In this document: positions 55,570 to 60,512 of the stretch, piece by piece
Layout of the letters: each line of letters opens with the position of its first letter
How positions within the stretch are numbered: position 1 is the first letter of the stretch
Origin: Mortierella sp. BCC40632
Taxonomy: Eukaryota > Mortierellomycota > Mortierellomycetes > Mortierellales > Mortierellaceae
Direction: 5' to 3'
Assembly: GCA_011634665.1 (NCBI GenBank)
Contig: WAEK01000009.1
Location: 1,169,501 to 1,233,500 of the forward strand
DNA: 64,000 nt
Notes under the pieces: generated by a model
Databases searched by the model: none
Seen by the model: the letters and a program-made list of their open reading frames with translations, nothing else
Told to the model about the DNA's origin: nothing
Translations under genes and position numbers: made by a program

Positions 55570-55581
55570 GAGAGAGAGAGA

Positions 55582-55668
<87 letters not shown>

Positions 55669-55723
55669 TGTGTGTGTGTGTGTGTGTGTGTGGATGGATG
55701 GATGGATGGATGGATGGATGGAT
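55570..55723. repeat. Compound (AG)n-(TG)n-(GGAT)n microsatellite
   Basis: About 48 AG units pass directly into about 13 TG units and then about eight GGAT units. The array ends about 80 bp before the left end of the Fanzor element. Confidence 0.95.
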
Positions 55724-55802
55724 GAGGTGTGAGAGAACGATGGAGTGGAGCATCAAAAGATGGGCGCAGCACAGGAGCAAACAAGCCACCGATTTCTTAC
55801 TA

Positions 55803-55848
55803 CAGTCCGGCGTCAAAAGGTGTACAAAAATTGTACAGCTTTTGACAC
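55803..55848 (+). repeat. Left terminal inverted repeat, also a hairpin
   Basis: Begins CAGTCCGG. From 55812 to 55846 it is itself an imperfect palindrome: gtcaaaag, one unpaired G, tgtacaa, an AAA loop, then ttgtaca, G, cttttgac. The AAA loop matches the reverse complement of the right-end TTT loop, so the two ends are inverted copies and not direct copies. Confidence 0.88.
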
Positions 55849-55978
55849 CCTCTCCAACAAACTGATTGGCTACGAAATTAAGCTAACTTCGTGACGCCAC
55901 TTTTAATACAAAATACAGCTTGCTCTAGCTCTATCTGTGTAGGAGACACTCGTCTTCTTATTCACACCGTCCGTCACC

Positions 55979-58900
55979 ATGGGTTTGACCGATATTTCAC
56001 AGATGCTGCGGGAATTAGATTGCAGAGGTACTCCTACAGACCCAAGAGACCATTGTGAGGTGCATGTGGACCTGCTGTCCTGTTACTTTGGATTTATTCG
56101 GGCTTGCGACTTCAGGATTACCCGCAAGCTTTTAAAGGAGAACCACTCTCTGGACACTTTGCAAGCGTTACGGATCGAACGATTGACTGCTGCTCTCGAC
56201 TCGAAGCTTTCTAAAGCATTCAATAAAAGCGCAATCCTACATATCGACGGCAACCCTACAAAGGAAAAGGAACATGCAAGATCCCTACGCTCAGCGATCT
56301 ACAAGCAGCAGAACGACCGCCTGGAAACGCAAATTGACGATCTCAACAGGCGCTGCTCACAAATCCTGAATTCTGCGCCAGACAAGCTCATAAAATCACA
56401 CATGAAAAGTCTCCGCAAGAGCTTCCGCAAGATGTTACATGCGTGGCAAAGATCTTTTCGCATCGACGACGATATGCGGCGTCGACTGGGTGCAAAGCTT
56501 GCAGCAAATGGGTGGCAGCTATGTGAGCGGGATCCTACGTCCAGGATCTGTGTTGGCGAGGCAGACCTTTGCTGCGCCCAACTCGCCGCCCAGAAGAACG
56601 GTGAAGGCCGCGGTCCCATTGTAGTAGCCTCAGGAGACTCAGATTTCCTCGCACATGACAACATAACTTTACTTCGCCAGAATGCCAGACGCCGGACCGA
56701 GTATCGCCAATTTACTCGGCAATATGTGATCGCGACGCTCAACATGAATAGGCCACGGTTAAGACGCTACACCAAAAGGAACCAGCATCGTGAGGAAGAA
56801 TTCCCTCTCCTTAACCCGGACATCTGGAAGGTGCTAGCAACGGTGTGTCAAAACGACTATTCAACTAACGTCAAGGGCTACGGCCCAAAGAAGAACTGGG
56901 CGATTCTTGGTCAGTTTTGGGACCGAGAAGGGGTAGACACACCCCAGGAATTGCTAGCAGAATACGAGAAAGATATGGCAAAGAGAAAGTACAAAGGCGA
57001 CCCGGTCGTTGTCCCAGACTTTTCTTCATCCGCACGGGTGTTTTTTGACCGCACGGAAACCTTGCTACCACCTTCCTCCTCACCACCCAATGCTATCCCT
57101 CATCATGATGTGATTCCTCAGGTGATGGCACTCTATGGGCGTTCGATGACCATGCTAAAAAAAGAGTTTTGTAAAGGTCCACCCCATACACTACAGTCGG
57201 ATCTCAAGAAAGCCAAGTATACGCGACACTTTCGAACAAGTAACAGCCAGTTCAAACCCCGTTTGATTAAGTTGCCACAATGGAATGAACCACCGCCAAG
57301 ACCGCCATCGAAAGTTCCCACCCCCCCTACAGAGCGAAAACCTCAAAAACAATCTCAACAGGTTAGTGTGCATCCGAATTGATCAGCACGCATACAACTT
57401 GCGCAGCTATGATACTTATCATCGCTTTGATACCATCAGGAGCGCGTTAAGGCTAGCATCAACAAAGATCATATCAGTGAGTCTGCCCCTCCTGACAAAG
57501 GAAAAAAGAGAAAAGTAGAGGTATGACAGTAGATATTGGTAGTGCTTGCCGTGACTTTCCACCAACCACACGTGTTTTCTCATTCTCTCTCTCTCTCTCT
57601 CTCTCTTTTTCCTCTTTTTTTTTTTTTTTGTTGATAGGAGCCAGAGCAGGGCAGTCCCTCAAGTAAACCCAAGACAAAACGATCAAAACCTAAAGTCGAC
57701 AAGACGAGCCGCGCATCAAGGGAGACAAATTGCCGACAGGAGAGGATCGCCCAGGCAGCCGCTGAAGGGACGGATCTTAAGATCCAAGAACGCTGCCGCA
57801 ATCTTGGATCAATTATCAACGACGTGTTGAAATCCCTCTGCGAGACGGTAACTCTCCAAAAGGTGACACCCGTCATCTACTGACGACCCACATGGCGGTG
57901 AATCTAAGACCTTCGGTGGAGGCATACGTCGCAGCCGGTCACGCATTGGACTTCAAGCAATCGCCTGATGATGACCAGTCTACACTTTGTGACCATGTCA
58001 TATCCGCCCTGAAAGAGGATATCGAGGACACTCTCACCCAAATTTCACGACTTTACACGGATCTCAGACGGATTTGCATTTATGCTACCGAGTATTACAT
58101 CTCCAAGATTATGGCCGAGCATTCCGACATCGGACACCGTGAACAACGGATGCGTGCCTTCCAGGCCGTGTTGAAGGGCCAAGATTTTTTCCGGGCACTA
58201 GCCGTTGCTCTGTACAGTCCTAGCCGAATGAGAGATGTACGAGTCAAAGAGGATTCAGCGCTGGCAAGACAGATTGCAGCCACATTTGAACTGGATTTTG
58301 GTGCTGCCGCACAGAAAGTTCTCGAGAGAGTTCGCAAGCTGCTGGATGGCACTGTCCATATGCACGTTATCGAGGAGATCGCCCGTAATACTAGTGACGG
58401 GATTCGAACTCAGGCGCAACACTTTATCACGACCTTAAAGTCACGGGTAAGTTGTTTCTTTGACAGAGCGGTGTAGCTTATCAACTTGCCTGTATCTAAC
58501 CGTCTTCAACCTTTTCTAGGTGATTGAACAAGCTCCCGAATGGGCCAACACCACCGGAAAGCCGATGCTGGATGCAATTGACAAAAATGGTCAAAGCAAG
58601 CGAGACGACCTTTTGTCCACCAATTGGTTTCTGAACTCCGTTCTTCCAGAGGACTGTCGAATTGCCCTGTACCCCCGATCATCCTGGAGCAACGCCTTTG
58701 TCTGTCTCAGTGAGGCAAACATAATCCACTCACTCAAGCGCAGAAGACTGACGCCGGAAAAAAAAGCATTGATCCCGGTGTATAATCACCTCTTTGGCAA
58801 AGGCACAGCGTATGCTGAGCACCGTGGCCAGCTGATCTACGACCTCTTCTTTGGAGGCACAAAGACGAATTACGACCGGACCACAGCGGTGGCACATTCA

Positions 58901-60342
58901 CTCCACTCTGACCGAACACCAGCAGTCTTGGACTTGAGTGAGCCGAGCCTCAGCACTGTAGCACACAAGGTTTGTCATGGTGTAGACCGAGCTGAACAAC
59001 GGCTTGCGACAGCCGAGTTCAAGAATGCCATTAAGCAGGACATCGTGTCGCGTGGTGAGGAGCCCCATCACAGCAAAGGACGTCGTCTCAAGTACATACT
59101 AGAAGGGACTCTCCAAACGAATGGCCAACAGGTCAAAGTGCAGGCGGCTCATTTGTGGCATAGGTGGCCCAGGAAGAAAGTGGCCGACACTGGCAACTCA
59201 TCTTCAGTGTCCTCAACGACCTCTACACTCTCCACGCTCACCTCCGAGGGCCAAACAAAAGACTGGAGACCAGAACACCGACAATCGCACATCGATTACA
59301 TTCAACAGTGTCCCCTGACCAGGCCGCCGTGCAATGTCTATTTCCCGGCCAGTCAGAATTCATTGTTACGGCCGTTGATCCAGGAGCTAAAAAGTCAGCA
59401 TGCTCAGCAACGATTGACACACTCGACCCGGATCATGTCTCGATCGTCGATGTCCCAAGGGCAAACCTATCGTTCGCTGAGGAGCTCTACAGGAAAAGGC
59501 TGGAGTATGCGAGGCAGAACGCCATCTACGATGGCAAGGACATTCACACGATTGAGTGTGAGCTGGTAAAATTCACACTACCGCCTCCACATGCTTCGCC
59601 TCTTGAATCTTTTCATCAAGTCTTTGCAGAGGCGAAGACGAACATGACGACTCATATTGAGCGTGAGCTCAAAGCAGACCCGGTCCTTAGCGATTTTTAT
59701 GGGTCACCTCGGTTGCGTTTCTGGCGATACCAGAAGGAGCAAGGCAGACGGGCGGACACTGGTCGAGCTATAGCCAGCCTTCTCAAGAATGCCCAAAAAA
59801 AATCTCTGGTCAAAGCTCAAGACAAAGAGGAGAGGCGGGCACTCTTAGCCATTGGTGATGGTAAATTTGGGAGTTTGCCGGGTATTCATGATAAGTCGGG
59901 AGGCTTTCGTTATCAACTTATCCAAGAGGTGAGAAAGCTTTTTCAGCTGTCGAGACAAAAATATGAAGTGGATGTTCATATCAAACTGTCGTTAACCCAC
60001 TGGGAATAGGCCAAAGGGAGGGCAATGGTAGTGGTTTTGGTCAACGAATTTAGGTCCTCTATAACTTGTAGCCGTTGTCGTGGACCTACCAAGGCCTTCG
60101 GCAGGAATCTCATCTGCTTGAGCCCAACGTGTGGTGGGGCACGTACAGAAGAGCAGAGCGCGATCGCTGGTCTGAGTTCCACCACTGGTCCCATGTGCGA
60201 CAGAGATCACAATGCGGCACTGAACTTGGCGCGAGCAAGCCTGCAACAAATCCAGGAACACTCTTGGCCAGTTGAGCTGCAGCGGGTCAGGGCAATAAGT
60301 CTGGAGAATGACGGTGCCATTTTGGCAAGTGCCGACGTATAG
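55979..60342 (+). CDS. XPG/FEN1-like nuclease joined to Fanzor (TnpB-like) nuclease
   Basis: Deduced exons 55979-57361, 57440-57520, 57638-57847, 57922-58446, 58520-59154, 59208-59928, 60010-60342; about 1295 residues if spliced as one protein. Residues 1 to ~330 are an XPG/FEN1 domain: D31 (VHVDLLSCYF), D90 (LHIDGNPTKEK), E194 and D196 (VGEADLCCAQLA), D220 and D222 (VASGDSDFLAH), and D293 in the H2TH-like CQNDYSTNVKGYGPKK. Exon 2 ends in the NLS-like KGKKRKV. The last ~740 residues are Fanzor: helical WED/REC-like region, TLQTNGQQVKV, RuvC-I Asp in VTAVDPGAKK (codon 59377), LLAIGDGKF, RuvC-II Glu in VLVNEFRSS (codon 60046), zinc ribbon CSRC...CLSPTC, and RuvC-III DRDHNAALNLA (60199-60231). 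Weak points: the 57848-57921 intron and a 53-bp intron at 59155-59207 with a GTGGCA donor. Confidence 0.8.
57892..60342 (+). CDS. Alternative model: separate Fanzor ORF
   Basis: If the intron at 57848-57921 is not used, the XPG frame ends at TGA 57881-57883 and an ATG at 57892 opens the Fanzor part (AVNLRPSVEAYVAAGH onward), only eight bases later on the same strand. The Fanzor product would be about 748 residues, a normal size for the family. A stop and start this close would be odd for two fungal genes with their own promoters, which favours splicing or reinitiation. The downstream exons and domains are the same as in the fused model. Confidence 0.45.
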
Positions 60343-60510
60343 GCGTTGGCGCAAAATTTACGGTGTAAGTGCCTCAATTAGTTTGTTCGTCAGTCAATCA
60401 AACTACTGACTATTCTAACCCTCTTTTTTGCTTAACTTCCAACCAACCACAATGCTAGGATGAAGTGTCAAAAGGAGTACAATTTTTGTACAACTTCTGA
60501 CACTGCACTG
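60343..60510 (+). ncRNA. Predicted guide-RNA (omega-RNA) scaffold region
   Basis: In known TnpB and Fanzor elements the guide RNA is made from the region between the nuclease stop codon and the right end, with the guide lying just past that end. Here this is the 168 bp after the stop, closing in the right-end hairpin. If the rule holds, the guide would start at about 60511 (tacggatgctgtaactcctt). This comes from position and family knowledge only; no covariation or expression evidence is available. Confidence 0.3.
60465..60510 (+). repeat. Right terminal inverted repeat, also a hairpin
   Basis: Ends GCACTG, then TA. Positions 60465-60503 form an imperfect hairpin (15 of 18 stem positions pair) with a TTT loop: gtgtcaaaag...gtacaa / ttgtac...ctgacac. 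It is the inverted counterpart of the left end. Confidence 0.88.
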
Positions 60511-60512
60511 TA

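Follow-up and report, generated by a model that had tools for sequence, protein, structure and literature searches.

Among the described systems closest to the one reported here, SPu-1/SpuFz1 is a TA-flanked inverted-repeat element of about 2.1 kb that encodes one 633-residue protein with RuvC motifs and a C4 zinc ribbon, and no transposase has been found in it (PMC3627910, PMC10432273). PGv-1 is a Mariner element with a transposase, a GIY-YIG endonuclease and a Fanzor1 (PMC3627910), and PpFz1 of Parasitella is a fungal Fanzor1 with an extra domain, the FRI domain, which is inserted in RuvC and binds cyclophilin (PMC11423790). We analysed a window of 64,000 nucleotides from Mortierella sp. BCC40632 (positions 1169501-1233500 of contig 9; the assembly comprises 49.9 Mb in 62 contigs) and a 4708-bp element within it, one copy of what we call family A. 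Like SPu-1, it is a TA-flanked inverted-repeat element without a detected transposase that encodes a RuvC domain and a C4 zinc ribbon, but here a nuclease of about 300 residues resembling XPG and EXO1, followed by a linker, stands in front. As in PGv-1, a second nuclease travels with the Fanzor, whereas in PGv-1 that nuclease is a separate protein of an unrelated family and a transposase is present; as in PpFz1, which is also a structural match, a fungal Fanzor carries an extra domain, but of another kind. On balance, we favour the view that the product of the element joins an XPG/EXO1-like 5′ nuclease through a linker to an RNA-guided Fanzor nuclease, and that the two form a cut-and-process unit serving to retain or home the element.

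The XPG frame (55943-57382) is followed on the same strand by Fanzor frames from 57638 to 60342, and the two halves are most simply read as one spliced gene with these predicted parts:

55979..57361, forward strand: exon 1, the XPG/FEN1/EXO1-like 5′ nuclease (461 codons) and linker
57362..57637, forward strand: predicted intron joining XPG to Fanzor (276 nt, GTTAGT..GATAG, phase 0)
57638..58446, forward strand: exon 2, N-terminal part of the Fanzor; frame broken near 57856 in the window copy
58447..58519, forward strand: predicted intron (73 nt, GTAAGT..TCTAG, read by eye)
58520..59928, forward strand: exon 3, middle part of the Fanzor and RuvC-I; frame broken near 59312 in the window copy
59377..59379, forward strand: codon of the RuvC-I aspartate (AVDPGAKKS)
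59929..60009, forward strand: predicted intron holding the in-frame stop at 60007-60009 (81 nt, GTGAGA..AATAG)
60010..60342, forward strand: last exon, with the RuvC-II glutamate (60046-60048), the C4 zinc ribbon (TNB) and the RuvC-III aspartate (60205-60207)
60343..60510, forward strand: 3′ region, where by analogy with known Fanzors the omega RNA scaffold would be expected, with its guide from the right flank

The first-pass annotation had described an XPG/FEN1 domain with seven named acidic residues, directly followed on one strand by a Fanzor with its RuvC Asp, Glu and Asp and a zinc ribbon, and both halves hold up on closer inspection. In the first, D31, D90, E194, D196, D220, D222 and D293 are all found, together with K97 and R104 at +7 and +14 from D90. 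The single window sequence reaches Pfam XPG_I_2 at E 2e-4, below the cut-off, and finds no related chain in the PDB; a profile of eight XPG relatives finds RAD2 there (E 1.1e-8) and FEN1 (best E 3e-6). The metal-binding acids and the K/R pair are complete in all nine columns in 24 of 27 relatives, a count that draws on 43 proteins chosen for having an XPG part. This active site is kept among proteins averaging 42-45% identity, and the XPG parts of the different families are only 25-29% identical to each other. In an AlphaFold2 model of a fused relative (P0014), the N-terminus has a PIN-like fold that resembles EXO1/FEN1 and spans their core, with structural matches of only 13-18% identity. A second structural comparison of this model fell almost wholly on residues 2-303, with no Fanzor chain among the best 50 matches listed. 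Prediction from the window's XPG exon with five sequences gave no usable fold (predicted local distance difference test score 40.8), and a sequence search of the PDB with another relative, P0005, gave no match. EXO1, FEN1, RAD2-XPG and GEN1 are like the XPG half in fold, metal-binding acids and K/R pair; they are cellular repair enzymes not known to be joined to an RNA-guided nuclease.

The same residues bear on whether the XPG half acts on RNA instead, trimming or maturing the guide RNA or serving as a regulatory PIN-type domain. The weak XPG_I_2 match and the fusion to a presumed RNA-binding effector would fit such a role, which we nevertheless regard as unlikely: the conserved residues match those of DNA 5′ nucleases, down to the K/R pair at +7 and +14 of the second aspartate, and the EXO1/FEN1 core is covered by the P0014 model. 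It is this DNA-type residue set that makes us favour break processing over RNA processing. Virus-encoded members of the same nuclease family include the poxvirus G5 proteins, with Pox_G5 matching the XPG part of our family E weakly (E 3e-4, below the cut-off), and the ranavirus protein ADRV 12L, which is reported to aid recombination and break repair (PMC9146916) and is a functional parallel only. When the fusion profile was run on viral contigs, 104 stretches fit a pattern and none was a relative, and the matches in BFVD bore Fanzor/TnpB-like or XPG-type names; no join to an RNA-guided nuclease was found in these searches.

The second half is a Fanzor, judged by its sequence motifs, and RNA-guided double-strand cutting is predicted for it. 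Its zinc ribbon matches Cas12f1-like_TNB (PF07282) at E 5.7e-6, just above threshold (26.8 versus 26.3 bits). The RuvC motifs read AVDPGAKKS, VNEFRSS and DRDHNAA, with D, E and D at 59377, 60046 and 60205, and the zinc ribbon is followed by the RD seen after such C4 ribbons (DRD at 60199). All three catalytic columns are complete in 35 of 38 relatives. A Fanzor profile from other families touches only the RuvC-I frame of the window, and weakly (E 0.0018). Against Fanzor structures, the P0014 model matches SpuFz1 at E 2e-9, PpFz at 7e-8 and GtFz at 9e-8, so that both folds called for by the first-pass annotation, PIN/XPG and RuvC, are found in one model. A further frame, 57555-57827, has a weak Pfam match to ArlX (E 5e-4, below the cut-off) that begins within the low-complexity sequence preceding exon 2.

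The same arrangement recurs in proteins already in GenBank. Searching with the C-terminal half of the Fanzor from a distant family (locus L055) gave 125 proteins, and the counts given here cover the 120 that were listed. An XPG profile built without any of these proteins (A1) matched in 62 of them; one built from 43 of them placed both parts in 66, never in reverse order, so that relatives frequently keep the XPG part on which the proposed fusion was staked. Both parts were present in 3 of 30 proteins shorter than 700 residues, 8 of 25 between 700 and 900, 13 of 19 between 900 and 1050 and 42 of 46 of at least 1050, many of the listed relatives, long and short, being marked partial. P0043, P0044, P0050 and P0053 match Pfam XPG_I and TNB together. 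As far as checked, the named sources of the proteins are Mortierellomycota and one aphelid, Amoeboaphelidium occidentale, whose protein P0125 has both parts and every catalytic residue testable given its shorter N-terminus. The first four XPG relatives to be identified came from Lunasporangiospora, Podila and Actinomortierella. A Fanzor search with locus L053 matched only one protein and was probably blunted by low-complexity stretches. Two XPG-Fanzor proteins, P0073 and P0052, go under the database names 'Elongation of fatty acids protein 2' and 'putative transposase'. The same XPG-first order in many Mortierellomycota proteins and one distant fungus suggests that certain RNA-guided nucleases of transposons come with a break-processing tool of their own.

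These relatives also speak to the possibility that XPG and Fanzor are made as two proteins, by genes that lie side by side or are spliced in alternative ways, and are only co-transposed. The four GenBank homologues of family A (P0001-P0004) are modelled at 257-468 residues without a Fanzor, and no XPG was detected in 54 of the 120 listed Fanzor relatives; yet 50 of those 54 are shorter than 1050 residues, and many of them are flagged as partial. In three families the halves are connected through open frames and introns. At L055 the reading frame continues uninterrupted from XPG to Fanzor across three introns of 90, 92 and 132 nt, with one later frame break in that copy; at L053 a phase-2 intron bridges the halves (by eye), and the same copy has a frame break inside XPG; the third case is the window. 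In family A, moreover, exon 2 has no methionine ahead of the conserved Fanzor part, the one that resembles group B (by eye). We therefore consider separate proteins improbable. The linker between the halves holds a similar short motif, RPWKEPP in L055 and QWNEPP in exon 1 of the window (by eye).

Across the genome, an XPG match lies within 6 kb upstream on the same strand of 32 of the 48 PF07282 matches, at 2.6-3.5 kb in 29 of the 32, and downstream or on the other strand for 5 of the 48. The 32 correspond to 30 XPG loci, since on contigs 1 and 7 two matches share one XPG. The merged XPG loci number 71, and 12 more of these, the window included, pair with a Fanzor protein match (by eye). Pfam XPG_I itself gives six matches across the genome. 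Four are strong, lie near no PF07282 match and are presumably the host's own repair genes; the two weak ones are XPG loci of the kind described here. A PF07282 match outside the window lies about 7 kb left of its start (G000:C9:1162148-1162324).

The element as a mobile unit is delimited by the following features:

55803..60510: XPG-Fanzor element of family A, 4708 bp, bounded by its inverted repeats, with three other full copies elsewhere
55803..55848, forward strand: left terminal inverted repeat, with inner palindrome GTCAAAAGGTGTACAAAAATTGTACAGCTTTTGAC (read by eye)
60465..60510, forward strand: right terminal inverted repeat, with an inner palindrome that pairs as a hairpin in an RNA fold
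55799..55802, forward strand: left flank ACTA, its TA being the target-site duplication and ACTA a candidate target-adjacent motif
60511..60512, forward strand: right TA target-site duplication

The inverted repeats are 46 bp long with CAGT ends and, TA included (55801-55848 and 60465-60512), are 85% complementary over 48 nt, which upholds the TA-flanked CAGT repeats seen at first pass. A TA duplication with inverted repeats is found in Tc1/mariner elements, and a CAGT start is typical of their ends. The genome has three more full-length copies of the element, on contigs 4, 20 and 24; they are 97.9-98.6% identical, sit at unrelated sites and are each flanked by TA. Within family A, the XPG exon has 10, 9 and 18 variable sites at codon positions 1, 2 and 3, and 14 synonymous versus 21 non-synonymous codons, too few to argue selection. 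Allowing up to three mismatches, the end pattern matches 12 times in the whole genome and its reversed control not once; eight matches are the ends of the four full copies, and four, on contigs 6 (two), 22 and 24, belong to decayed or nested remains. A (GA)n-(GT)n-(GGAT)n microsatellite lies just left of the element, at window 55570-55725. The two ends on contig 6 (G000:C6:1119800-1134400, L051-L052) enclose a 14.4-kb stretch of nested elements, among them a piggyBac-like transposase, Ty3-like fragments and two frames, both repeated, that carry a zinc ribbon of a different kind (DEYQTSKTCVFC); the stretch says little about how family A is mobilised. ACTA precedes all five readable left ends (the four copies and one on contig 6), and the right flanks of the same five read TAcgg, TAgat, TAcag, TAcat and TAgaa; this is the asymmetry expected from a target-adjacent motif on the left side. 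In the window, counted over both strands, AC precedes TA at 281 of 5014 TA sites. On this sequence evidence ACTA is a candidate target-adjacent motif of family A. The motif used by SpuFz1, CATA (PMC10432273), likewise ends in TA.

What moves the element is a separate matter. A Pfam scan of its 12 frames found no transposase family, and with no DDE/D match we have not filed it as an autonomous Tc1/mariner element. The first-pass annotation suggested that the XPG half might itself be the mobilising enzyme, cutting the hairpin-forming palindromes at the ends in place of a DDE transposase. Each end does have a palindrome a short way in, branched DNA is a substrate of XPG-family enzymes, and the end pattern's 12 matches, with none in the control, all fall at family A elements or remnants, so that no other transposon sharing these ends was found in the genome at up to three mismatches. 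The other families point the other way. Groups B and C have TATCCC ends in common with a 2-kb element (L060, G000:C18:869300-871550) that encodes a piggyBac-like DDE_Tnp_1_7 transposase and whose own ends hold palindromes too (by eye). XPG, moreover, accompanies Fanzor in families with unlike ends, and SPu-1 is a known Fanzor-only element without a transposase (PMC3627910). We thus find the idea quite unlikely, and XPG is probably not the transposase, with the caveat that the evidence comes from groups B and C and not from family A; the shared ends are also why we favour break processing over transposition. A TTAA duplication is typical of piggyBac. The B and C ends are flanked by TA, not TTAA, although TA formed part of one end search pattern, so that only the other end comparison is independent. 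Group C elements (about 7.1 kb) have an extra frame of about 360 residues upstream of XPG (L044, reverse strand, 148-1227; parts in L035, L046 and L048), 328 residues of which have no Pfam match. In family D, no inverted repeats were seen; four copies have a common right end, and the left end could not be placed because two of the four share flanking DNA. XPG therefore goes with Fanzor and not with one type of transposon, which argues for a role in what the Fanzor does. Of the functions first suggested for the XPG half, help with Fanzor cutting or homing is accordingly the most likely, with partial support, and replacement of the transposase is not borne out.

The fused gene structure, the folds (in a relative), both catalytic residue sets, mobility as TA-flanked multicopy elements and a long joint evolution are supported by sequence comparison and modelling. 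By analogy with known Fanzors, RNA from the right end of the element and its flank would guide the Fanzor half to the matching empty site, with the cut next to the ACTA motif in family A; the N-terminal 5′ nuclease would then act on the break, by 5′-end resection or 5′ flap trimming, and repair would be steered to copying the element from the chromosome that still carries it. Excision and insertion would be left to a transposase supplied in trans. Somewhat less confidently, and as a tentative proposal, we envisage a single-protein RNA-guided homing machine in which the Fanzor cuts and the fused EXO1-like nuclease resects at once, forcing recombination with the element-bearing copy. The same anatomy could serve as a weapon, in which the exonuclease degrades the cut target and destroys rival elements or empty alleles without promoting copying, since a 5′ exonuclease on a programmable cutter would be expected to enlarge gaps. 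A guide taken from the element's own flank, as in known Fanzors, would instead point at its own empty site, and we hold this use to be very unlikely.

Several observations, besides the Fanzor-less homologues of family A, weigh against a cut-and-process unit. The fusion in family A itself rests on a splice-site reading. Every full copy has at least one frame lesion: relative to the other three, the window copy has single-base deletions near 57856 and 59312 that break its frame, unless the assembly is wrong, and those three carry different lesions, so that the family may be dying here. In the two comparisons made, no Fanzor evidence accompanies 29 of the 71 merged XPG loci, which include short fragments, several loci of 500-900 bases and both weak XPG_I places; likewise, 16 of the 48 PF07282 matches have no upstream XPG, through decay or true absence. 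Despite its good E-value, the whole P0014 model superposes poorly on SpuFz1 (root-mean-square deviation 18.5 over 664 columns, TM-score 0.24/0.44). EXO1 and FEN1 tie as matches, so that 5′-end resection and 5′ flap cutting both fit. The predicted RNA fold of the 3′ region (60343..60510) is no better than chance (z -1.4, not significant). No conserved motif, ACTA-like or other, stands next to TA in 12 left flanks of groups B and C (about eight distinct), which makes ACTA the signal of one family.

In open-licence full text we found no account of an XPG-Fanzor fusion, although subscription papers or preprints may hold one, and nothing that joins Fanzor with Mortierell-, Mortierell- with TnpB and transposable elements, or XPG domain with transposon and fungal; TnpB and XPG occur together in one paper, on Cas12a R-loops. 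Programmable nucleases have been engineered as fusions with end-resecting enzymes, a subject on which our literature search likewise found nothing, and the homing machine, if it is real, would be their natural counterpart. As to what Fanzor does for its transposon in eukaryotes, the fused nuclease, of a kind active in recombination and repair and with its active site conserved, points towards the processing of breaks and homing. The fusion proteins are candidates for RNA-guided nucleases that have end processing built in, and a function can now be proposed for many Mortierellomycota proteins listed as hypothetical.

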